Below, piece by piece: positions 1,071 through 20,033 of a stretch of 64,000 bases of DNA. A model generated the notes under the pieces. That model was not told where the DNA came from and did not search any database. It saw nothing but the letters and a program-made list of their open reading frames with translations. The position numbers and the translations under genes were made by a program. Each line of letters begins with the position of its first letter. The stretch's first letter is position 1. Source of the stretch: Candidatus Poribacteria bacterium (GTDB lineage Bacteria > Poribacteria > WGA-4E > WGA-3G); the NCBI GenBank assembly GCA_022827185.1, contig JAJDTM010000055.1, positions 1-64,000 of the forward strand, read 5' to 3'.

Positions 1071-1480
1071 TTACAACAGAATCTGCTCAACTCTCTCTTT
1101 CGCCTCCTCCACAACAGCATCGGCTTCTTGTTGCAGCTGTTTAACCCGATGACGGGTTTTGATGATATAATCAGCGATTTCAGTCTGCTTTTCAATTGGC
1201 GGCTTTGGAATGATTAACTCCTTAAAGAATTCACTTGAGACCCTTTGCTGTCCAGCGGAACCCGTGAAATGCAACGCAGCATGTTTCCGTAAAGACTTCA
1301 TGTGCAACAAAGCATGGATATAGTGAATATTTATCCCTTCTAACGCCCGGAAAACATGAAACTCCGTTGAACCGCATCCGATACCTTCTTTCAAGTTATC
1401 AACAACAGCAGATTTGCCGTTCTCCATACACGGTGTAATTTTTGCCCAAATCAGGTCGTTGTCTTTGAACCTTGTATATC
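1071..1480 (-). pseudogene. hsdS: C-terminal fragment of a type I-like DNA specificity subunit (HsdS)
   Basis: RYTRFKDNDLIWAKITPCMENGKSAVV...IPKPPIEKQTEIADYIIKTRHRVKQLQQEA is typical HsdS TRD2 plus conserved helix; the first residues of the annotated ORF are IS sequence. Confidence 0.8.
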
Positions 1481-1519
1481 TGAAGTGCATACGCTTATTT
1501 AGGCCACAATTTCGCAAAG

Positions 1520-2368
1520 TTAAGACAAGTTTTGTCGTTGAAATTCGATAGGTGTCAAATATCCTAACGCCGAATGGGGGCGTTTGAAATTATAGACGTT
1601 TGTGATAAAATCTCCGATGCGATCTCTCGCCTCGGTGATGCTTTCATAGTCATTGAGGTGAACTTCTTCTTCCTTGAGCGTGCGGATGAGTCTCTCAGCA
1701 TATCCGTTCTCCCAAGGGCGTCCGCGACGGGCGACGGAAATCTCAACGCCATGTGCTTTGAGCGTCGCCACATAGACTTTTGAAAGATACTGCACGCCTT
1801 GATCGGAATGATGGATCTCACAGACGCTGTGGCATAATGCCTCTTTGAGAGGCGTGAGCGTCAGAGATTGGTTCAAGTGCTGACTCAGATGCCACCCTCT
1901 GATCATCCGGGTGAAAACATCCATGAGCAGGCAGAGATAGATGAAACGTCCTTTGAGACGAATATAGGTAATATCTGCCACCCAGACCTGATCTTGACGA
2001 GAGACTTCAAGGGTTTCGAGACGATTGCTCCACGGTTTATCCCCTTGAAGCGATCTTGTTGTTTGACACGCACGCTTGACAGAGACCAAGAGATTGTTAG
2101 CTTTCATCAAGCGGGCGACGCGTCGGGTGCCAACGGTGTATCCCTGACGCTGTAGCAACTGCGTGATACGCCTATACCCATATCTCGGATACCGTCGGGC
2201 AAGTTTCTCTATTTCCGAGCGTAGCAGGGCTTCGGACGGATCCTCTTGGGGGTGATAATAGAAACTGCCCCGGTTGACACCGAGAATGCCACAAATATCT
2301 CGCACGGAATGCTCCTTTTGCAATGCGGAAATAAAGCATCGCTTGTCAGCTAATGTTAGTCCAACCAA
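1520..2368 (-). CDS. IS3-family transposase OrfB (rve integrase core)
   Basis: WVADITY, HHSDQGVQY and RPWENGYAERLIRTLKEEEV motifs; HTH_21-like N-terminus. Confidence 0.93.
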   Translation of the reverse strand: MVGLTLADKRCFISALQKEHSVRDICGILGVNRGSFYYHPQEDPSEALLRSEIEKLARRYPRYGYRRITQLLQRQGYTVGTRRVARLMKANNLLVSVKRACQTTRSLQGDKPWSNRLETLEVSRQDQVWVADITYIRLKGRFIYLCLLMDVFTRMIRGWHLSQHLNQSLTLTPLKEALCHSVCEIHHSDQGVQYLSKVYVATLKAHGVEISVARRGRPWENGYAERLIRTLKEEEVHLNDYESITEARDRIGDFITNVYNFKRPHSALGYLTPIEFQRQNLS

Positions 2369-2640
2369 GTCAATAGTTTTTTTTGGATGTCTAACGCGAC
2401 AGCCATTCTCCCAACGAGTTGCTCAAGGTGGTCAACACGCTTCTGCATTTCGCTCGACGGCTTATCAGTAGAATCAAACAGCGAAGGTGCTTTTTCAAGA
2501 AACTGCTGCTTCCATTTCGAGAGTTGGTCTTCGTTGAGATTGTGACGCCGGCACACTTCTGCTTGCGAACTCGCACCGCTGATAACCTCCAGCACGAGTT
2601 CCGTCTTAAACTCGGAGGTGAATTGCCTGCGTTTGGCCAT
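2356..2640 (-). CDS. IS3-family transposase OrfA (HTH, leucine-zipper-like)
   Basis: MAKRRQFTSEFKTELVLEVISGASSQAEVCRRHNLNEDQLSKWKQQF; overlaps orfB at an A8 run (complement of 2377-2384), a likely -1 frameshift site. Confidence 0.9.
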   Translation of the reverse strand: MAKRRQFTSEFKTELVLEVISGASSQAEVCRRHNLNEDQLSKWKQQFLEKAPSLFDSTDKPSSEMQKRVDHLEQLVGRMAVALDIQKKLLTWLD

Positions 2641-2719
2641 TAGATAACTCCTTTCAGTGAGATTGCATTATAGCACAATCTTGTTTTAGGGAGTGGCCTA
2701 AAAAACCGTAGGCAGTACA

Positions 2720-3232
2720 ACCCGTTATCTCTCTTTGTATCTGTAGCTTACCAAAGGAAGAGTTTAGGTAGTGAAGCAAGTAAATAGGGTTCACATCAGC
2801 TTTGGCCCTCAGTAAAAATAGATGCTCATTTATATTCTGTTCAATATGTTCTGTACTGTTGACAATCCCAATTTTTCCTGTAGTCGCGCCATCTTTTACT
2901 AAAAGTAGATCGTTGATTCGGGTTTCTGTTTTGTTGTGTAAACTATGGAACTCCTCGGAGATGTATCTCGGTGTACTAACTTCTATTTCACATTGATCAT
3001 TTATATGTTCACCGCCGAGACTTAATACACCAGCCTGTATATTAGCAACCCCGCCTTCCGGCCGCTTTCCACTGTCTATTAACTGTAACAAATCAGCAAG
3101 CCTTTTTACGTTATTCGAGTTACTTAACCGATTTTGAAAAACCTTATAGTGATTTTGATAGTAGAAAGGATCAATACGTCTTTTCGCTGTTTCGCCCCAA
3201 TAGGTGAGAAAAATTTGATTTTCCCTATCAGG
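2720..3232 (-). pseudogene. hsdS: N-terminal fragment of a type I-like DNA specificity subunit (HsdS)
   Basis: Open frame ..TYWGETAKRRIDPFYYQNHYKVFQNRL..SGKRPEGGVANIQAGVLSLGGEHI...NSSFGKLQIQREITG| then IS sequence; start codon not resolved. Confidence 0.75.
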
Positions 3233-3234
3233 GC

Positions 3235-5502
3235 TTACGCGAAAAAATCTGGATTCTCTATAAACTTTCGATATTCTTCACAGATCGTATTAAGATCGTT
3301 AATCTCGTCTTTACGTCCCGTTGCGTCATAGCCAATACGCTCAGCGATCGCCATGAAAATTGGGTGATTGGCGTTTTCGCGAACCCACTCGCGGATGTCC
3401 TCTGCGTTCTGATCTTCCCATTCTTCCTTAACAATGTCAATCTGTTCCTTGTATTTTGCTTTGATTTCGCTTTCCCACTCCGGATCAACTGCTGCTTTGA
3501 ATACTGCTTTGTATTCCTTCTCCAGCGCGTTCAACTTGCTCATCTGTGCCTTAAGTTCCGCGAGCGCGGTTTGTGCGTTGAATAATTCAAATTCTGTGGT
3601 AGGTGTGGACTCAATTTCTGGGAAGAAAAAGGTACTGAGTCTTTGAACAGTTTTCGTTGGCGTTTTGTTAAGTTTCTGATTTAAGGCATCAATACTGTCC
3701 AAAATAGCGATGAATTGCTGCCTATAGGTTTCTGTTACATCAACTTGTGCTGGAGAGCCTTTTGCGATAATAGACCGTCGATCATCTTCAAGTGCTTCAA
3801 TCTTAGGTACATAGATCGCCTCGTTCTTTACAGTAATTTGATTGATGGCCGCTTGATAGCGTTCATATTCCTGTTTTGATAACTTTCGGAGAAACAGGAT
3901 GGACGTTTTAACACCGGCACCGTAATGTGAAAAAGCGATCTGTGGTAGCGAAACAACTGCAAGGATTTGGAAGTGCCGTTCAACATAATCGCGGACATCT
4001 TGCAGCGAAGAGTTGGTCAAAATACCGTCCGGTAGGATAATCGCGAGTTTTCCAGTTTCCCATTTGAGGAAGTCGAAACAGCGTTCAAGAAACAGAATTT
4101 CAGTCTTTCGAGAAGTTTTTCCTTTACCAAGTTCGTAATTTTCAAGATAAGGCAGTTCTGCCTGTTTAATGTCTGCTCCGAAAGGTGGATTTGTAAGGAT
4201 TACATCAAATTTCTCTTTTTCAAAACTGCTGTGTTGGTTGCGGAGCGTATCAAAACCGACAAGTGCATCATTGCTGATAACGTTGCTATGCCCATCATCG
4301 TGAATAATCATATTCATCTTTGCAACGCGGGCAATAGAGTCGTTAACTTCAATGCCGAAGAGTCGCTTTTCAGCGAAATCGTGCCAATGGAGATAATGTT
4401 CTCGGCTTTCTTTATCATGGTAGTCGGATGCCTGTTTACGAATGTAATCCATGGCGTGTAGCAGGAACCCTCCTGAACCGCAGGCAGGATCGAGGACGAG
4501 TTCTTCGTGGTGTGGTGTAACCATATCCACCATAAACTCAACCACCTCGCGAGGCGTAAAGAATTGTCCGATTTCCCCTTTGAAAAAATTCCCTAAGAAC
4601 CGCTCAAAAGCAATGCCTTTTACGTCTAAATCAGTTTGGTTGAGGCTAATTCCCTGCAAGTGATTGACGACAGAAAACAGCCTGTTTTCATCAACTTCAA
4701 TATTCTCCGTAAACACCTCTGGGTCTTGTACCTTTGCTTCCTGATAGAGTGCATTAATTCGATTTGCAACAGATTCTGGTTTTTCATGCGTCTTAATCTG
4801 AAAATCGTAAGGTTCCCCGTCTCGTCTCGCCTTCTTTTCATCTCGGATTTTGATAAAAAGAATCTTGGCAAGTTCATCAAATGCTTGTGTAGGCGCAAAT
4901 TTGCCACCTTGCCAGAGCGTTTGGTGACATTTTTCGAGGACGCGAATAAGGTCGCCCCTTTCAATGACGGAAGGTTCCGAACAAGGGATACCTTTTAGAT
5001 ATCGCCATTCTTGGACTTTGTTGTATCCTATCGGCGGATCGGCGATAATGTTTTCTGTGCGTTCACCCGGCTTATAATTTTTAACATCATGAGAAATACG
5101 CGTATGCCCAGCAACGACAACGGTGTAATACGCCCCCAGTGAGTTACAGTTCCCGAAAGCTTGTTCAACCGCTTGTTTGAATTCTGCATCGGAAATTCCT
5201 TCCTTTTTGCACTCAACCACAATGAAAGGATCTTTCTTATCATCGTCTTGGAAAACAACAATATCGGCACTGTCAGAAGGTGTCCTGCGTGGAACAGTTA
5301 CCTCCAAATCTATTCGGTTTTGGGAGTATTGAAAATGCTCGATTAACTCGACGTAAAACTTTGCACGGACCTGCTCTTCTGGATCGGTAAATCTATATTT
5401 TTTGTTGGGAGCGATGTAGCGAATTGTTGTCCCTTCATTGAGGAATTCAATATAGCCTTTTTGCGCTCCGATCTGAAGGAAATCGGTTTGGTTGCTTCTC
5501 AC
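3235..5502 (-). CDS. Type I-like restriction-modification protein: N-terminal HSDR_N-like nuclease domain fused to N6-adenine methyltransferase
   Basis: SADIVVFQDDD..DPFIVVECKKEG (PD-(D/E)XK/HSDR_N-like), then DPACGSGGFLLHAMDYI and DVILTNPPFGA (HsdM motifs I and IV). Confidence 0.88.
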   Translation of the reverse strand: MRSNQTDFLQIGAQKGYIEFLNEGTTIRYIAPNKKYRFTDPEEQVRAKFYVELIEHFQYSQNRIDLEVTVPRRTPSDSADIVVFQDDDKKDPFIVVECKKEGISDAEFKQAVEQAFGNCNSLGAYYTVVVAGHTRISHDVKNYKPGERTENIIADPPIGYNKVQEWRYLKGIPCSEPSVIERGDLIRVLEKCHQTLWQGGKFAPTQAFDELAKILFIKIRDEKKARRDGEPYDFQIKTHEKPESVANRINALYQEAKVQDPEVFTENIEVDENRLFSVVNHLQGISLNQTDLDVKGIAFERFLGNFFKGEIGQFFTPREVVEFMVDMVTPHHEELVLDPACGSGGFLLHAMDYIRKQASDYHDKESREHYLHWHDFAEKRLFGIEVNDSIARVAKMNMIIHDDGHSNVISNDALVGFDTLRNQHSSFEKEKFDVILTNPPFGADIKQAELPYLENYELGKGKTSRKTEILFLERCFDFLKWETGKLAIILPDGILTNSSLQDVRDYVERHFQILAVVSLPQIAFSHYGAGVKTSILFLRKLSKQEYERYQAAINQITVKNEAIYVPKIEALEDDRRSIIAKGSPAQVDVTETYRQQFIAILDSIDALNQKLNKTPTKTVQRLSTFFFPEIESTPTTEFELFNAQTALAELKAQMSKLNALEKEYKAVFKAAVDPEWESEIKAKYKEQIDIVKEEWEDQNAEDIREWVRENANHPIFMAIAERIGYDATGRKDEINDLNTICEEYRKFIENPDFFA

Positions 5503-7070: not shown

Positions 7071-8951
7071 ATGAAAACGACACATCTATGCCGCATCACC
7101 CTATTTTTAACGCTTGCGTTATTATTGCCGAATGCACCCGCTCAAGATTACAACACATGGGGTTTACCTGACGGTGCGACATTGCGCCTTGGTAAAAGTA
7201 GAAGAACAGGAAATATCGCTTTCTCACCGGATGGCACCCGGCTCGCAGTCGGCAGTGCTATCGGGATTTGGATTTACGATGTGCGTCCCGGCAAAGAAAA
7301 AGAACTTGACTTGCTCAGAACCGATACTGGGTCAATCCAATCTATCGTATATTCTCCAGACGCCATCATCATCATCGCCAGTAGCGGCGACGATGAAACA
7401 GCGCAACTCTGGAACATCGTCACAGGGGAGCAGAAAATAACGCTTGAAGGACATACGGACGTTATCTATGCTTTCGCGCATTCTCCCGATGGCAAGATGC
7501 TTGCGACGGGCAGTGGAGACGAGACAGCACGCTTATGGGACGCACAGACAGGTGAACACAAAACAACACTTGAAGGGCATACAGAGCGTCTCTCTTCTGT
7601 GACGTTTTCTCCCGATGGAAATACTGTAGCAACCGGCAGTTTCGACAATACAGTGTCGTTATGGGATGTGCACACAGGCGCACACAAAACGACATTAAAA
7701 GGACACACGGCGCTTGTCAATTCTGTGGTGTATTCGCCGGATGGGAAAACCCTCGCGACTGGGAGTCGTGATAGCACAGTGCGGTTATGGGATGCCAGCA
7801 CGGGACAGCACAAAAAGACAATGAGACGACCCACGGATGGTGTCCGTACCGTAGTGTATTCTCCCGATGGAAAAACGATCGCGACTGGGAATTCGGACAG
7901 CACAGTGCAGTTGTGGAGTGCTTATGGACGGCATAAAACCACACTGAGAGGACACACGGGACTTGTCTATTCCGTGGTATATTCTCCAGATGGGAAAGTG
8001 CTTGCGACCGCAAGCGGAGACGATACAGTACGATTATGGGACGCAACCACAGGAAAACATATTAAGACGCTCTCAGGACATACCAGGTCAATATCCGCCG
8101 TCACGTACGCTCCGGACGGAGGCACTATCGCCAGTGGCGGTTTCACTGAAGGCAGAGGGATATTACAACTCTGGGACGCACACACAGGCGCGCACAAAAC
8201 CACGCTTTCAGAGCATGTGAGTGATGTCTTTGCTGTAGCGTATTCGCCAGATGGCAAAATGATCGCGACGGCTGGTAGGGATGCGACGGTGCGATTGTCG
8301 AACGCACAAACTTGGGAACACATTACTAAACTTACAAGACATAGGAGCTTTATCTATGCCATATCATTTTCTCCGATTGAGCGCACGCTTGCAACCGCCA
8401 GCCGGGACAAGACCGCGCGCCTGTGGAACGCACAATCTGGAAAACAGATCGCTACACTGGAGCATGCCAGTGCGGTCCTTTCTATAGCGCATGCGCCCGA
8501 TGGCACAACACTCGCGACCGCGGCAGACGATACAGTACGCTTGTGGGACCCACAAACAGGAAAACACATGACGACGCTCCCCAAATATCAGGGTTTAGTC
8601 CTGTCAATCGCTTATGCCCCGGATGCAGAAACGATCGCTATTGGAGGAGGAGTTTTCAGCGACAACACCGCCGTAGTGGAGCTACAGGATGTGAGCACCG
8701 GGAAACAGATCGCTACACTCTCAGGACATACAGGTATTATCAAGTCCATCGCATACTCTCGGGATGGCACCCAAATAGCGACTGGCAGTGATGACAAGAC
8801 AGTGCGGTTGTGGGACGCGAAAACAGGAACGCACCTTGCCACACTTACAGGACATACGGCAGGCGTTACGTCTGTAGCATTCTCTCCAGATCGAAGCACT
8901 CTCGCCAGTGGCAGCAACGACGGCACGATTCTGCTATGGAAGATACGTTAG
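7071..8951 (+). CDS. Exported WD40-repeat protein
   Basis: Signal peptide (MKTTHLCRITLFLTLALLLPNAPAQ) then many SPDGxxxATGSxDxTVRLWDxxTGxHxxTLxGHT blades. Confidence 0.93.
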   Translation: MKTTHLCRITLFLTLALLLPNAPAQDYNTWGLPDGATLRLGKSRRTGNIAFSPDGTRLAVGSAIGIWIYDVRPGKEKELDLLRTDTGSIQSIVYSPDAIIIIASSGDDETAQLWNIVTGEQKITLEGHTDVIYAFAHSPDGKMLATGSGDETARLWDAQTGEHKTTLEGHTERLSSVTFSPDGNTVATGSFDNTVSLWDVHTGAHKTTLKGHTALVNSVVYSPDGKTLATGSRDSTVRLWDASTGQHKKTMRRPTDGVRTVVYSPDGKTIATGNSDSTVQLWSAYGRHKTTLRGHTGLVYSVVYSPDGKVLATASGDDTVRLWDATTGKHIKTLSGHTRSISAVTYAPDGGTIASGGFTEGRGILQLWDAHTGAHKTTLSEHVSDVFAVAYSPDGKMIATAGRDATVRLSNAQTWEHITKLTRHRSFIYAISFSPIERTLATASRDKTARLWNAQSGKQIATLEHASAVLSIAHAPDGTTLATAADDTVRLWDPQTGKHMTTLPKYQGLVLSIAYAPDAETIAIGGGVFSDNTAVVELQDVSTGKQIATLSGHTGIIKSIAYSRDGTQIATGSDDKTVRLWDAKTGTHLATLTGHTAGVTSVAFSPDRSTLASGSNDGTILLWKIR

Positions 8952-9084: not shown

Positions 9085-9147
9085 AATAATTTTTTCTGAA
9101 TTATGCCACCATTTTGTCCTAACCCGCGTCACTATATATTGAGACGA
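9085..9147 (+). promoter_or_regulatory. Conserved upstream block, copy 1
   Basis: AATAATTTTTTCTGAATTATGCCACCATTTTGTCCTAACCCGCGTCACTATATATTGAGACG, nearly the same as 12467-12528. Confidence 0.6.
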
Positions 9148-9176
9148 CAATGATCAACTAACTTGGTCCTCAAATC

Positions 9177-9217
9177 ATGCACCTTTCTTCACATAACTCG
9201 CGTCTTTATATACAAGC
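9177..9217 (+). promoter_or_regulatory. Degenerate third copy of the conserved upstream block
   Basis: ATGCACCTTTCTTCACATAACTCGCGTCTTTATATACAAGC aligns to ATGCCACCATTTTGTCCTAACCCGCGTCACTATATATTGAG. Confidence 0.4.
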
Positions 9218-9267: not shown

Positions 9268-10770
9268 ATGTTTTTAGTGCTACTGAGGCGTGAGATTCTC
9301 GCGCATCTGATAACATTTCGTTTTGCAATTACGGTGATCGTCTGCCTGCTTCTCGTTGTCATAACCACGCTCATCAGAATCGACGATTACGAGCAACGAT
9401 TGGCAAGTTACAATACCGCCAGAAATGTCCACCGTGAAGCACTTTTAGCCACCCGAACCTATTCTGATTTGAGACCAAAGATTGATCGTTCACCCAATCC
9501 ATTAAGCATTTTTAACGCCGGTATGGATGACCGGCTTGGCAATACATTGCGGATTTATTATACGAACATCCCACTCCTTTGGGATGCTGAGTCCCACGGC
9601 TCTGGTAACCTTTTTATTGATTATTTTTATCGAATTGACTTAGTCTTTATTTTTCAATTTGTCCTTTCTCTACTCGCGCTGCTGTTCGCCTACGATGCGA
9701 TTGCTGGGGAACGCGAAGCTGGCACATTGCGGCTCACAATGAGCCACCCAATAAGTCGAAGTGCTATCTTGGCAGCGAAATACTTTGGCGCGATGATCTG
9801 TTTGGTGCTTCCCCTCATCATCAGTTTCGCTATTGCCTTAATATGGATCGTCCTATCAGGATCAATCTTTTTCAGTGGAGACGATTTTTTGAGAATCGCA
9901 GGCATCTTGCTAACGTCGATCATCTACCTCTCTGCTATCTACTTGATCGGGCTGCTGATTTCCGCCGCGGTGCACCGGACTGCCACAGCACTCATGCTCT
10001 CTCTATTCATCTGGGTAGTACTGATATTGGTCTATCCCTCCGTTAGTGTGTTCGCGGTCAACCAGTTAACCCGTGAACGAGATAATAAAATAAACTCCAG
10101 TTTCGGCGCAATTTGGCAAATACAAGAGACAGTTAACAAGAAGGAGAGTGAATATCTTAAGAACGATGGAGTCAACGGAGAAAGTGACCGCTTCTTAAGG
10201 GACAATTATTTGGTACACATTGGTGTAAGTGCCCCAGAGATAGCAAATCATATAGAGTTCAAATCTTATGATTGGCGGGACATTGCCCCGGAATCCGAAA
10301 AATTTATGCCTCACGCCATCCGCTACCATCAATTCTTGACGCCGCTACGCATTCGTGCTGCAGAGAAAATGGGATTGGTGCGCATGCCGGTATTCAAGCA
10401 GACCCGGTTTTGGCGAGCAAAAATAGCTCGAAACCTGCTTCGGCTCTCCCCCGCCGCGATGTATGACCTCGCAACACAAGCGTGGGCAGGAACGGATCTT
10501 TATGGGGTTACCGATTTCTTTGAGGACGCGAGGCAGTATCGACGGACGCTGATTGATTACCTGTATGACAAAGATGCCTTCTCAAGCCGACAGTGGTTCG
10601 CCAGCGATAAAGGAACCATCAATTTGGACGATCTACCGAGATTTGTATATCAGCGTGCCAGTCTCCAGACAAACGCTTCACGTGCACTCCCCGATCTTCA
10701 GTTCCTGCTATTACTCAATATTCTACTGTTCCTTGCAACCTTTTCCATTTTCGTCACGCAAGAGATTTAA
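9268..10770 (+). CDS. ABC-2-type transporter permease
   Basis: MFLVLLRREILAHLITFRFAITVIVCLLLVV...LLFAYDAIAGEREAGTLRLTMSHPISRSAILAAKYFGA...; start moved to 9268 from ORF 9163. Confidence 0.82.
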   Translation: MFLVLLRREILAHLITFRFAITVIVCLLLVVITTLIRIDDYEQRLASYNTARNVHREALLATRTYSDLRPKIDRSPNPLSIFNAGMDDRLGNTLRIYYTNIPLLWDAESHGSGNLFIDYFYRIDLVFIFQFVLSLLALLFAYDAIAGEREAGTLRLTMSHPISRSAILAAKYFGAMICLVLPLIISFAIALIWIVLSGSIFFSGDDFLRIAGILLTSIIYLSAIYLIGLLISAAVHRTATALMLSLFIWVVLILVYPSVSVFAVNQLTRERDNKINSSFGAIWQIQETVNKKESEYLKNDGVNGESDRFLRDNYLVHIGVSAPEIANHIEFKSYDWRDIAPESEKFMPHAIRYHQFLTPLRIRAAEKMGLVRMPVFKQTRFWRAKIARNLLRLSPAAMYDLATQAWAGTDLYGVTDFFEDARQYRRTLIDYLYDKDAFSSRQWFASDKGTINLDDLPRFVYQRASLQTNASRALPDLQFLLLLNILLFLATFSIFVTQEI

Positions 10771-10911: not shown

Positions 10912-12387
10912 ATGATTTTTCATATTGTCAAACGTGAACTCTACGATCACCTGAGTAGCCTCCGTTTCGCACTGACAACGCTATTGATTCTGATATTGAT
11001 GATTATCAATGCTGTTGCGTATCTCGGAGAATACAATCAGCAAATGAAGATATATCAGAAAAACGTTGCAGCGACGCACAACCGGCTGAAACGGCATTCT
11101 GACACACTCTATCACTTGGTGTTAAAGGGGCCGGGCGACCTCCATAAAAAACCGAGCTCTTTAGCATTTTGTGCAGATGGTGGAAAAGCTCTTTTGTTTA
11201 CGCATGTGCGCGGCGGCACCGCTAGTCGAACTCGCCGTTGGGAAGGGAAAGACACCTCATACCAATTCATAGAAATCTGGCGATTAGTCTATCCACAAGC
11301 CAGCCCCGATCTCATATTCATTTCGCCACCCAGATCAAACACATGGAGCATCATGCCAGATTTTATCAAAATCGATTGGGCATTCGTAACGGCTATTGTG
11401 TTGAGTTTCATGGGCATCCTATTTACGTTCGATGCGATCTCTGGTGAGCAAGAACACGGCACGCTGCGGTTGATGTTGGCAAACAGTGTTTCACGGAACG
11501 CCGTGATTTGTGGTAAGTTTCTCGGCGCATTTTTTAGCATCGCCATTCCCTTTTTGATTGGAACAATTGTGAGTCTCTCCATCATATATCTTTCCGAAGC
11601 TATCCAATTCAAGGGTAGCGATTGGATGAGGATGGCGGGCATCGTCTGTGTCGCACTCGTCTATACCTCAATTTTCATTCTGTTAGGACTCGTCGTTTCG
11701 ACGCTCACCAAACAGTCTTCGACGAGTCTGGTCATCCTCCTATTAATCTGGACAGTCTGGGTGGTGCTGACACCAAACGTGCTTGGCTCCCTTAGTAGCC
11801 GCCTGCACTCCCGTCCATCCCCGAAAGAATTCGTGACGCAGTATCGGAATTCGCGTCAAGATTTACAGACACGCTACTTTGCCCGGATTAAAGAGCCGCC
11901 CCGAAGAGAAATCCCCGCGACAATCGCAACAGCGTTAGGGGCAGAATACGTCAATAAAGACGCAGAATTACGCGATCGTTTGCATGCAGATTACCTTTCC
12001 ACCGAACTCCGTCAAATCCAAACTGCCCGGTACCTGACCCGTATTTCACCCGCAGCGGTTGTGCAGTACGCTTTTGAAGCACTTGCGGGTACCGGCTTGC
12101 CCCGCCATTTAGACTTCATCTCCCAAACACGCCAATACGCGAAACAGTTTCGGCAGTTCCTTATTGATACTGACCGCACAGACCCAGAAAGCCCACACGC
12201 GATCGGTATCCCAGAAGGCACATCACAGAAACCGGTGAACTTAGATGCCATCCCCAAATTTGAAGATCGACACCGCTTTAGTGAGGATTTTAATGCCGCA
12301 ATCGTTGACCTACTGCTTTTGATGCTGTTTCTATTGGTGTTATTCATTGGTACTTTTCTCTCTTTCCTGCGTAGAGAAATTGAGTGA
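10912..12387 (+). CDS. ABC-2-type transporter permease (paralog of the preceding gene)
   Basis: MIFHIVKRELYDHLSSLRFALTTLLILILM...LFTFDAISGEQEHGTLRLMLANSVSRNAVICGKFLGAFF. Confidence 0.82.
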   Translation: MIFHIVKRELYDHLSSLRFALTTLLILILMIINAVAYLGEYNQQMKIYQKNVAATHNRLKRHSDTLYHLVLKGPGDLHKKPSSLAFCADGGKALLFTHVRGGTASRTRRWEGKDTSYQFIEIWRLVYPQASPDLIFISPPRSNTWSIMPDFIKIDWAFVTAIVLSFMGILFTFDAISGEQEHGTLRLMLANSVSRNAVICGKFLGAFFSIAIPFLIGTIVSLSIIYLSEAIQFKGSDWMRMAGIVCVALVYTSIFILLGLVVSTLTKQSSTSLVILLLIWTVWVVLTPNVLGSLSSRLHSRPSPKEFVTQYRNSRQDLQTRYFARIKEPPRREIPATIATALGAEYVNKDAELRDRLHADYLSTELRQIQTARYLTRISPAAVVQYAFEALAGTGLPRHLDFISQTRQYAKQFRQFLIDTDRTDPESPHAIGIPEGTSQKPVNLDAIPKFEDRHRFSEDFNAAIVDLLLLMLFLLVLFIGTFLSFLRREIE

Positions 12388-12466: not shown

Positions 12467-12528
12467 AATAATTTTTTCTCAATTATGCCACCATTTGTCC
12501 GAACCCGCGTCACTATATATTGAAGACG
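12467..12528 (+). promoter_or_regulatory. Conserved upstream block, copy 2
   Basis: AATAATTTTTTCTCAATTATGCCACCATTTGTCCGAACCCGCGTCACTATATATTGAAGACG. Confidence 0.6.
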
Positions 12529-12560: not shown

Positions 12561-15338
12561 ATGAAAAATAACGATGTTGAACTCATACACAGAATCCTCG
12601 CCGGTGATGATACTGCCTTTGAAAATTTGGTGAAAAAATACCAAAAACAGGTGCACGCACTCGCTTGGCGGAAAATCGGCGATTTCCATATCGCTGAAGA
12701 GATTACGCAGGATACCTTCCTCAAAGTCTATCAAAATCTGTCAACTTTGAAGAATCCGAGTCAGTTTTCTGGATGGCTTTATGTCATCGCCACGCACCAA
12801 TGCCGCGCATGGCTCCGTAAGAGACGCTTAGAAACTGAACCCTTGGAAGATACCGACATTGACAGGATAGAAGGAACTGCGTATTCCAAATATATCGCAG
12901 CGGAACAGGCAAAAGGGTCAATAGAGACACAACGCGAGGTCGTTAAAAAGTTACTCTCTACATTAAAAGAGAGTGACCGAACAGTAATAACACTCTACTA
13001 CTTTGGTGAAATGACGTGTGAAGAAATTAGCCGATTTTTAGGGGTATCGACAAGTGCTATCAAGAGTCGTCTCAGTCGTGCCAGAAGACGGCTAAAAAAG
13101 GAGGAACCGATGATTCGAGAGGCACTCAACAATTTCCAAATTTCCGCGAACTTAATTGAAGGCGTTATGAAACAAGTCGCACACCTTAACCCCGCTGCAC
13201 CTGCAGGGAACAACCCTTTTATGCCGTGGGTCTTGGCTGCATCTGGTGCCATTATAATCGTGTTGATGTTTGGGATGAGCAGTCAGTATTTATCGCGTTT
13301 CCAACAATCCTATAATTTGGAGGGACAATCTGAAATGACAGTGGAACTTATTGATACACCGATCGTCCAGAATATTGACGCAAAACCCGATGTACGGAAT
13401 GTAGTCGGAGACAATTCCGATACACTCGGTAAAGGTGATGGTACTAAACAGGCATCAAATCAGGTTTTATCCGACCCAGGGGACTACACGCACTGGAAAC
13501 TCCCTGAGGGCGCGAAAGCACGTCTCGGGAAAGGCAGTATCACCGGAAATATCGCTTTCTCGCCAGATGGTACACGACTCGCTGTCGGAAGCTCTATTGG
13601 GATTTGGATCTATGATGTACGTCCCGGTGAAGAAAAAGAAATTGACCTGTTCACAGGGGATACGGAAGTCGTCAACGCACTCGCGTTTTCACCCGATGGT
13701 ACTATGCTCGCGAGCGGAGGTTCGGACAAAACTGTACGCCTATGGGATGTAAACACAGGTCAGCAGATAGGTACATTCATAGGACATACATGGACGATCA
13801 CAGCAATAGCGTTTTCACCCGATGGAAACACCCTCGCGACCGGCAGTGGCTTCTGGGATCCAGATAGAATAGAAATGGAACCGGAAGTCCGGTTGTGGAA
13901 CGTCCAGACAGGAGAACTCAAATTTACACTCACAGGACATACAGAGATTGTCACTTGCGTCACGTTTTCACCAGATGGCAACACACTCGCAAGCAGCAGT
14001 AATGATCAGACGGTACAGTTGTGGGATACACGAACAGGAGAACACAAGTCTACGTATGAAGAAAACTGGGGCGGGATCTCTTATGTATCGTATTCCCCGG
14101 ATGGGAACATACTCGCTTTTGCACATCGTAATACAGTGCAGTTGTTGGACAAACGGACAGAGACACATAATATTACAGTCCAAGGCGATAGAAGAGATGT
14201 TAATACTATAGCGTTTTCTCCTGATAGCGCGACGCTCGCTACTGGACACCATGACGCCGTACACTTATGGGATGCGCGAACAGGTGAACATAAAACGACC
14301 TTCAAAGTGAATAAGCAAAGTGTTCGTTCTATTGCATATTCACCTACGCCTTCTATCGCATTTTCTCCAGATGGAAAGACGCTCGCTACCACCGGTACAG
14401 ACCATATCGTACAGTTGTGGGACGTTCAAACGGAGAAACGTAGAAAAACATTTAGAGGACATACGGGGACCTTCGCTTCTCTCGCCTATGCTCCTGATGG
14501 AAAAACACTCGCTGCTGGAACTCGACGGGGTGTAGGTTTTTTATGGGACGCTCGGACAAGACAACCCATCGCCAAACTCATAGGGCATACGAGTCATATC
14601 TCCGCGCTTTCATATACCTCAGATGCGAATACGATCGCTACTATCGGTAGGGATGGAACAGTACGCTTGTGGAGTGCTGACAAAAATTCATCACAGGCGC
14701 GCACGCGAGTGCATAAAACTATGTTTATAAGCCATCCCGACGAATTTAGAGCAATGGCATACGCACCCGATGGAAATACAATCGCTACTGGCGGAACCCA
14801 AAAAACAATATGTCTGTGGAATGCACAAACAGGTGAAAAAGTAGCAATACTCGAAGGACATACAGATGTGCTTAACGCCCTTACATTCTCCCCAGACAGC
14901 ACAACACTCGCAAGTACGAGTAATGACGAAACAATCCGATTGTGGGACATTCAAACAAGGCAAATTATAACAACGCTTGAAGGACATACACAAGGTCCCA
15001 ATTCCATCGCCTTCTCCCCAGATGGCACAACTTTGGCAAGCGCGAGTGATGACAAATCAGTGCGATTGTGGGACGTTCGTACAGGCGCGCAGAAAACTGT
15101 AATTAAAACACCACCGCAATTACGGTACATCAGTGTCGTGTTCTCACCGAATGGGGATAAAGTACTTACTGGCAGCAGGGACAAACCGGTGCAGTTCTGG
15201 GACACACAGACAGGGGAACACATAGCCACACTCACAGGACATACGGGCGGTGTTAACAACGTAGTATTTTCTCCAGATGGAAATACCATCGCAAGCGGAA
15301 GTCACGACGGCACAATCCTGCTGTGGGAGTTGCGTTAG
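12561..15338 (+). CDS. ECF RNA polymerase sigma factor fused to a transmembrane helix and a C-terminal WD40 domain
   Basis: Sigma70 region 2 (DTAFENLVKKYQKQVHALAWRKIGDFHIAEEITQDTFLKVYQNL) and region 4 (LLSTLKESDRTVITLYYFGEMTCEEISRFLGVSTSAIKSRLSRARRRLKKEE), TM (MPWVLAASGAIIIVLMFGM), then WD40 blades; start at ATG 12561. Confidence 0.93.
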   Translation: MKNNDVELIHRILAGDDTAFENLVKKYQKQVHALAWRKIGDFHIAEEITQDTFLKVYQNLSTLKNPSQFSGWLYVIATHQCRAWLRKRRLETEPLEDTDIDRIEGTAYSKYIAAEQAKGSIETQREVVKKLLSTLKESDRTVITLYYFGEMTCEEISRFLGVSTSAIKSRLSRARRRLKKEEPMIREALNNFQISANLIEGVMKQVAHLNPAAPAGNNPFMPWVLAASGAIIIVLMFGMSSQYLSRFQQSYNLEGQSEMTVELIDTPIVQNIDAKPDVRNVVGDNSDTLGKGDGTKQASNQVLSDPGDYTHWKLPEGAKARLGKGSITGNIAFSPDGTRLAVGSSIGIWIYDVRPGEEKEIDLFTGDTEVVNALAFSPDGTMLASGGSDKTVRLWDVNTGQQIGTFIGHTWTITAIAFSPDGNTLATGSGFWDPDRIEMEPEVRLWNVQTGELKFTLTGHTEIVTCVTFSPDGNTLASSSNDQTVQLWDTRTGEHKSTYEENWGGISYVSYSPDGNILAFAHRNTVQLLDKRTETHNITVQGDRRDVNTIAFSPDSATLATGHHDAVHLWDARTGEHKTTFKVNKQSVRSIAYSPTPSIAFSPDGKTLATTGTDHIVQLWDVQTEKRRKTFRGHTGTFASLAYAPDGKTLAAGTRRGVGFLWDARTRQPIAKLIGHTSHISALSYTSDANTIATIGRDGTVRLWSADKNSSQARTRVHKTMFISHPDEFRAMAYAPDGNTIATGGTQKTICLWNAQTGEKVAILEGHTDVLNALTFSPDSTTLASTSNDETIRLWDIQTRQIITTLEGHTQGPNSIAFSPDGTTLASASDDKSVRLWDVRTGAQKTVIKTPPQLRYISVVFSPNGDKVLTGSRDKPVQFWDTQTGEHIATLTGHTGGVNNVVFSPDGNTIASGSHDGTILLWELR

Positions 15339-19553: not shown

Positions 19554-19582
19554 TTGCGTCCCCGATGCTTTTGTGTTATACT
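19554..19582 (+). promoter_or_regulatory. Sigma70-like promoter TTGCGT-N17-TATACT
   Basis: Spacer of exactly 17; about 35 bp upstream of ATG 19617. Confidence 0.55.
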
Positions 19583-19616
19583 GCTCCCATCAAATCTTAA
19601 AAAAAGAGGTGTCGAA

Positions 19617-20033
19617 ATGAACTGTCCACGCTGTAAACGCGAAGATGCTGTCAAAAATGGGAAAGCCAGAGGGAATCAACGGTACAAGTGTAACGCTTGT
19701 GGCTTTCAGTTCACACGTCAGACGACTCGCGGAAGACCACCGTGGCAGCGAGCCTTAGCCGTTTTCTTATACTGCCGTGGTGTCTCTATAAGTGATATAG
19801 CGCGGACGTTCTCAGTGGCACCGAGCACCATCTTCAAATGGATCCGAAAATTCGGTTCCGAGCGGATACCCTTGCCTGAATCCACAGCCGATGGCGCGAT
19901 GCTCCTTGACGAAAATGAGATAACAGAATATCTAAAAAAACAGAGCGAAGGCTCCGAATCCGGAAAGATTTTTGTTGTGATACCAGCGGATATATCATCT
20001 GAAAATGTAGTCGTCGGGATTAAACGCGATTAA
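19617..20033 (+). CDS. IS1 InsA-like zinc-ribbon/HTH DNA-binding protein without a transposase partner
   Basis: MNCPRCKREDAVKNGKARGNQRYKCNACGFQFTRQTTRGRPPWQRALAVFLYCRGVSISDIARTFSVAPSTIFKWIRKFG plus an unrelated C-terminus. Confidence 0.75.
   Translation: MNCPRCKREDAVKNGKARGNQRYKCNACGFQFTRQTTRGRPPWQRALAVFLYCRGVSISDIARTFSVAPSTIFKWIRKFGSERIPLPESTADGAMLLDENEITEYLKKQSEGSESGKIFVVIPADISSENVVVGIKRD

Follow-up and report, generated by a model that had tools for sequence, protein, structure and literature searches.

The open reading frame at 12561–15338 (+) of the window, by which we mean the whole 64,000-nt stretch of Candidatus Poribacteria DNA analysed here, encodes a predicted one-piece transmembrane ECF sigma factor that would transcribe its own gene, be inhibited by its membrane tether and be freed by proteolysis upon an outer signal, a reading to which we assign a probability of roughly 60 %. 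What we describe below of its architecture, of the family it belongs to, of the promoters and of their covariation with the sigma domain is read from sequence.

Domain architecture of the fused protein

The reading frame runs through 925 aa without a stop and comprises the following parts.

12561–15338 (+): whole ORF, sigma–linker–transmembrane helix–juxtamembrane–WD40, 925 aa
12627–12827 (+): sigma region 2, aa 23–89 (Pfam PF04542 Sigma70_r2, 54 bits)
12939–13094 (+): sigma region 4, aa 127–178, including recognition-helix residue Ser169 (Pfam PF08281 Sigma70_r4_2, 52 bits)
13104–13217 (+): predicted cytoplasmic linker, aa 182–219, with two predicted helices and neither cysteine nor zinc-finger motif
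13218–13274 (+): transmembrane helix, aa 220–238 (hydrophobicity, AlphaFold)
13290–13415 (+): conserved, predicted extracytoplasmic juxtamembrane segment, aa 244–285 (56 % mean pairwise identity among paralogs with the helix)
13506–15329 (+): putative WD40 ectodomain, aa 316–923, about 14 blades, probably two propellers (profile, AlphaFold, fold matches)

A sequence-only reading of this DNA had described ECF sigma regions 2 and 4, a hydrophobic helix and WD40 blades in one ORF, and Pfam, NCBIfam, hydrophobicity and AlphaFold agree on this composition. Both Sigma70 profiles exceed their Pfam cut-offs, PF07638 likewise passes its own, and the NCBIfam model TIGR02937 (sigma70-ECF) scores 91–96 bits against a cut-off of 42.9. 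The sigma domains are confined to aa 1–181 in Pfam and NCBIfam, where regions 2 and 4 are found and regions 1.1 and 3 are not, as expected of an ECF sigma factor, and the nearest solved structure by sequence in the PDB is SigW. WD40 (PF00400) reaches 362 bits over nine stretches. The helix, whose sequence MPWVLAASGAIIIVLMFGM had been quoted exactly, is the sole hydrophobic helix in the protein and has a mean Kyte-Doolittle value of 2.12.

In the full-length AlphaFold model, aa 316–923 are all-beta with pLDDT mostly between 80 and 95 and about 56 strands, corresponding to about 14 blades, and the sigma part is poor (pLDDT 28–56). A model of aa 1–300 made with 40 relatives folds aa 1–210 well, except for a flexible stretch joining regions 2 and 4, and gives low confidence to the helix and the residues past it. 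For the linker, two helices are predicted with fair confidence. Among PDB folds, the best match to the WD40 part is 2ymu, a highly repetitive propeller, with double-propeller WD proteins next.

That two genes were joined near 13200 by a frameshift or misassembly, as the sequence-only reading had considered, has nothing in its favour and next to no probability, and is ruled out by recurrence of the fusion: the ortholog in OX639973.1 (L137), a 6.66-Mb single-contig genome, is fused identically, paralogous fusions are plentiful in further single-contig genomes, and hundreds of loci share the fused order.

An apparently lineage-specific module with exchanged outer parts

Searching the window's own genome with aa 1–300 returned about 80 strong matches, from which 82 ORF sequences were extracted that represent 81 distinct genes, one gene having been extracted twice from two overlapping stretches. 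The helix at aa 218–248 is present in 62 of the 82 sequences, or 61 of the 81 distinct genes, and absent in the other 20. WD40 repeats occur in 17 family members of this genome. Among the members sampled with Pfam, the outer parts otherwise consist of BNR/sortilin-like propellers, LRR with GHL15, M16 peptidase, AhpC/TSA redoxin, transglutaminase, a carboxypeptidase-regulatory domain or PD40, and sampled members without the helix carry M61 or S9 peptidase, redoxin, HTH or DnaN clamp domains.

Mean pairwise identity among the helix-bearing paralogs is 66 % for region 2 and 67 % for region 4; the linker stands at 51 %, the helix at 44 % and the juxtamembrane segment (aa 244–285) at 56 %, and past this segment the value falls to 21–23 % (23 % at the start of the ectodomain). 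The conserved module therefore spans the membrane and ends just outside. From these alignments, the sigma part, helix and juxtamembrane segment are kept as a unit while the C-terminal part is exchanged.

Named relatives all belong to Candidatus Poribacteria, and homologs with the same three-part order, which the sequence-only reading had suggested looking for, were found as paralogs and orthologs across this phylum. When the linker–helix–juxtamembrane piece was searched across 85 Poribacteria genomes, the module turned up in 59 of 59 genomes of the window's family, with copy numbers per genome ranging from 1 to at least 53. Two sister families of the order hold it at low numbers, 1–3 weak copies per genome, with the fused order unchanged; elsewhere among the 85 genomes the module was not found.

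The copies lacking the helix count against an explanation by tethering. An ortholog of the window gene in VYCT01000017 (L209, from 1267) has lost the helix by in-frame deletion and has kept both the promoter and the GH127 neighbour. Since this gene and the 20 helix-less paralogs share the same promoters as the others, the sigma part, whatever its role, does not require a tether for it; either the sigma factor can also be regulated in solution, or these are altered copies.

Some of the helix-less genes deserve a description of their own. At L062:4623-6359 (G000:C60), a sigma factor of the family continues in frame into a DnaN sliding clamp with all three domains, and the same kind of fusion with two detected DnaN domains lies at L036:2837-4225 (G000:C44); besides these two, the genome holds three more DnaN ORFs. 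Fusions to S9 peptidase, M61 peptidase and redoxin-like domains were found at L071:7763-10648, L047:4229-7210, L079, L040 and L041. Several junctions in the helix-less fusions show a stretch resembling a ribosome binding site ahead of a Met (KGEIS-M).

Promoters and their covariation with the sigma domain

A two-box motif, ATTATGCAACCT - 12 or 13 nt - tcGCGTCACTAT, lies upstream of 65 of the 81 paralogs with scores above 18 bits. It was learned from the 220 nt 5' of the paralog starts, where scores are bimodally distributed and the shuffled maximum is 12 bits. Outside the training set, 66 of 76 loci from other genomes score above 15 bits (99 % of the null at 10.8 bits); the loci being homologous, this tests conservation rather than independence. 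A simple genome-wide pattern produced 30 matches compared to a single one in the reversed control, and sites away from the paralogs precede another ECF sigma factor, STAS proteins, an ABC ATPase, a MoxR ATPase and exported proteins. Judged by these sites, a sample of targets and not a complete list, the regulon would be wider than the paralogs themselves.

Individual examples of the family promoter ahead of STAS, ABC ATPase and MoxR ATPase genes and of another ECF sigma gene are L078:7342, L109, L122, L127 and L105. Upstream of L055:8523-11588 and of L142 4001 the usual promoter is replaced by a shared element, TTTrTGCTACAAAAGAGCnGCATGCGTAAGTCCTAAT.

In the window, promoters of this type and the genes near them are arranged as follows.

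7071–8951 (+): WD40 protein with signal-peptide-like N-terminus, collinear with the ectodomain of the window protein (48 % identity over 625 aa)
9100–9135 (+): second promoter copy, 5' of the ABC-2 permease genes (27.3 bits; alignment)
9174–9209 (+): further promoter of the same type, 5' of the ABC-2 genes (31.7 bits)
9268–10770 (+): ABC-2 type permease, probable target (PF12679, 105 bits)
10912–12387 (+): second ABC-2 type permease, probable target (PF12679, 110 bits)
12482–12516 (+): ECF-type promoter of the sigma gene, ATTATGCCACCA-N11-CCGCGTCACTAT (23.8 bits with the paralog PWM; 99 % of the null at 9.6)

The promoter of the sigma gene ends 44 nt 5' of the ATG at 12561, which we took as the start because the alternative TTG at 12495 sits inside the promoter and was rejected. 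Its 11-nt gap, compared to the usual 12–13 nt, counts against our preferred explanation. The sites at 9100 and 12482 are near-identical across about 60 nt, which makes the two ABC-2 permeases probable targets. A conserved operon with these permeases was considered and rejected, as the two genes are not adjacent to the closest orthologs, whereas the downstream GH127 gene is kept there (L137, L209, L153, L148 and L161). The window further contains type I restriction-modification genes at 1071–5502 (−), an IS3-type transposase at 1520–2368 between two short ORFs, one of which matches a specificity subunit, and at 19554–20033 an ORF with an InsA-like zinc ribbon and HTH, probably an IS remnant.

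Covariation between sigma domain and promoter was assessed over about 4,900 residue–base pairs, using the 130 genes that have a promoter (effective number 57). The top pair, at 18 standard deviations, joins residue 169 in the recognition helix of region 4.2 with base 7 of the −35 element, in the combinations S-C (83), N-A (16), L-T (12) and T-T (8). Residue 169 predicts this base in 94 % of cases, the next-best residue in 78 %, at a baseline of 65 %. On a tree built from aa 1–148, that is, without region 4, there are 18 changes of residue 169, 13 of base 7 and 20 of the pair; about 11 of the 13 base changes thus coincide with a change of the residue. Residues 166 and 168 covary with other −35 bases and residue 86 in region 2.4 with −10 bases; some high-scoring pairs fall outside the expected contact positions. 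The window follows the main pattern, with Ser169 in the protein and C at base 7 of its −35 element.

These data indicate that each sigma factor would read its own promoter. The sigma domains look functional and autoregulatory, for which the covariation is the best evidence, and autoregulation from an ECF-type promoter, typical of ECF sigma factors, is found here at the sequence level through the promoter at 12482 together with the covariation.

Activation, competing explanations and known systems

In the model we favour, a short linker and a single helix would anchor the ECF sigma factor to the inner side of the cytoplasmic membrane, this tether would keep it inactive, and two outer WD40 propellers would act as the sensor. 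A signal at the ectodomain would trigger cleavage in the juxtamembrane segment and then, by a site-2 protease, in the helix, setting the sigma factor free to transcribe its own gene and probably also the adjacent ABC-2 permease genes via TGCcACC/CGTC promoters. The protein is one member of a family, apparently lineage-specific to Poribacteria, in which the fixed sigma–linker–helix–juxtamembrane module is joined to varied outer parts.

The outside location of the propellers, inhibition by the tether and cleavage are steps that we infer. The propellers are most likely outside the cell because of the charges flanking the helix (net +5.6 over 54 aa on the N-side, −1.5 on the C-side), because the sigma part is needed inside and because the neighbouring WD40 homologue is apparently exported, and the flanking charges and this homologue lend support to the membrane-tethered sigma factor with extracytoplasmic propeller suggested by the sequence-only reading. 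For the activation step we favour regulated proteolysis, in analogy to IutY and SCO4117 (PMC8999054). The conserved juxtamembrane segment and an M50 site-2 protease gene in the window's genome fit proteolytic release, site-2 proteases being near-universal (14 of 14 control genomes likewise carry the gene). The linker helices might cover the sigma domain.

An anchored sigma factor that recruits RNA polymerase near the membrane, with the propellers governing folding or dimerisation instead of cleavage, is an unlikely alternative for which ToxR and CadC offer precedents of membrane-anchored action. It would account for a linker without any known sequestration device, as the zinc-finger anti-sigma motif HxxxCxxC occurs in none of the 82 sequences, the linker of every helix-bearing paralog is free of cysteine, and Pfam finds no match, including no FecR-like domain, in aa 184–313 of the window protein; the promoter match moreover indicates a functional sigma factor. 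However, sigma factors contact RNA polymerase extensively, which is awkward while tethered, and conservation in the juxtamembrane segment equals or exceeds that in the linker despite differing outer parts, as would fit a site of cleavage or of contact with a partner. The enzyme-like look of certain outer parts counts against our preferred explanation. In a further alternative, the sigma module would serve as an expression device and drive its own C-terminal cargo, be it an enzyme, an adhesin or a host-interaction propeller, by positive feedback. Cargo as varied as redoxin, transglutaminase, peptidases and DnaN and a matching promoter of its own in most genes speak for such a device; the linker and juxtamembrane conservation in 61 of 81 genes and the identical promoter type ahead of other envelope-type genes such as ABC, MoxR and STAS speak against it, and we consider it improbable.

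Compatible with release by proteolysis, the ORF may yield a second product from the following site.

13098–13112 (+): internal Shine-Dalgarno AAGGAGG, 5-nt spacer and ATG of Met184 (from sequence), candidate start for the helix and WD40 part without sigma domain

A start at Met184 would add a helix-propeller protein lacking the sigma part, so that the gene would amount to a fused operon of sigma factor and membrane sensor in which the product ratio matters. A perfect AAGGAGG 5 nt before ATG184 occurs in 69 of 106 genes, compared to 8.7 expected from codon usage, and of the 2,148 other internal Mets hardly any has this 7-mer. Lys180 is AAG in 94 % and Glu181 GAG in 93 % of genes, the highest values among the conserved columns (18 for Lys, 20 for Glu), and a sigma-less paralog (L044:5332-7719) can start at the matching point with GGAGGAACCCATGATTCGG. 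Synonymous conservation is, however, strong elsewhere too, Glu181 ranking 12 of 145 columns, AGGAGG is kept in only 10 of 20 members of the subset below 70 % identity, and Met184 is lost in deeper paralogs. As the codon-conservation control weakened the claim, we treat the two-product reading as a rival and not as the main one: a real possibility with the odds against it, and not a finding.

Several known ECF groups share parts of this design. In ECF57, a group of the Planctomycetes, the C-terminal extension contains WD40 repeats (PMC8999054), and ECF-WD40 proteins are expanded in Gemmataceae (PMC8567305, PMC11032199). The sequence-only reading had supposed such proteins in Planctomycetes, correctly so in the case of ECF57, whereas the organism of the window belongs to Poribacteria. 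The window protein likewise has a WD40 extension on an ECF sigma domain, with a transmembrane helix and juxtamembrane segment between the two, and differs in phylum and in its exchangeable outer part. At candidate positions for the cysteine pair proposed to join sigma2 and sigma4 in ECF57, we find Cys81 in 137 of 138 sequences and a Cys at residue 153 in only 42 of 138, which would tend to speak against this group. The actinobacterial groups ECF52 (SCO4117 of Streptomyces), ECF48 and ECF53 combine sigma, transmembrane and extracytoplasmic domains in one chain, with proteolytic activation proposed (PMC8999054, PMC5826349). Their C-terminal helix and extracytoplasmic domain are also predicted in the window protein, whereas the zinc-finger anti-sigma domain in their linker is absent (HxxxCxxC in 0 of 82), and the outer domain of ECF52 is carbohydrate-binding instead of WD40. 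IutY (ECF243) of Pseudomonas putida, a sigma factor fused to a membrane anti-sigma factor and released by Prc and RseP, is according to PMC8999054 the only experimentally characterised case; the window protein differs in having no FecR-like domain by Pfam and WD40 outside. By sequence, the Poribacteria family combines an extension of the ECF57 type with a predicted transmembrane segment of the ECF52/48/53 type, minus the zinc finger. We found no report joining ECF sigma factor, WD40 and Poribacteria in the open-access literature, and a single-cell study of Poribacteria describes abundant WD40 proteins and reports no sigma factor (PMC3909097).

What stands out is the scale of the family, its modular outer parts and the visible co-evolution of sigma factor and promoter. 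The sequence-only reading had placed the novelty mainly in mechanism and locus; we see it less in this single locus than in the roughly 80 paralogs of the genome, with their exchanged C-termini and co-evolving promoters. The natural sigma/promoter pairs of the family, about 80 within a single genome and with shifts in specificity that can be seen at single residues, would provide a data set on the evolution of promoter specificity and a source of orthogonal switches. We tentatively extend this to Poribacteria signalling at the scale of two-component systems, with tens of one-piece sigma receptors per genome, each with its own co-evolved promoter and in part an internal start for a sigma-less receptor, a view we hold to be doubtful as yet. 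If true, this would be a bacterium that senses its surroundings with dozens of sigma factors acting as its receptors, and, as it is a sponge symbiont, the outer propellers may read signals of the host or the matrix.
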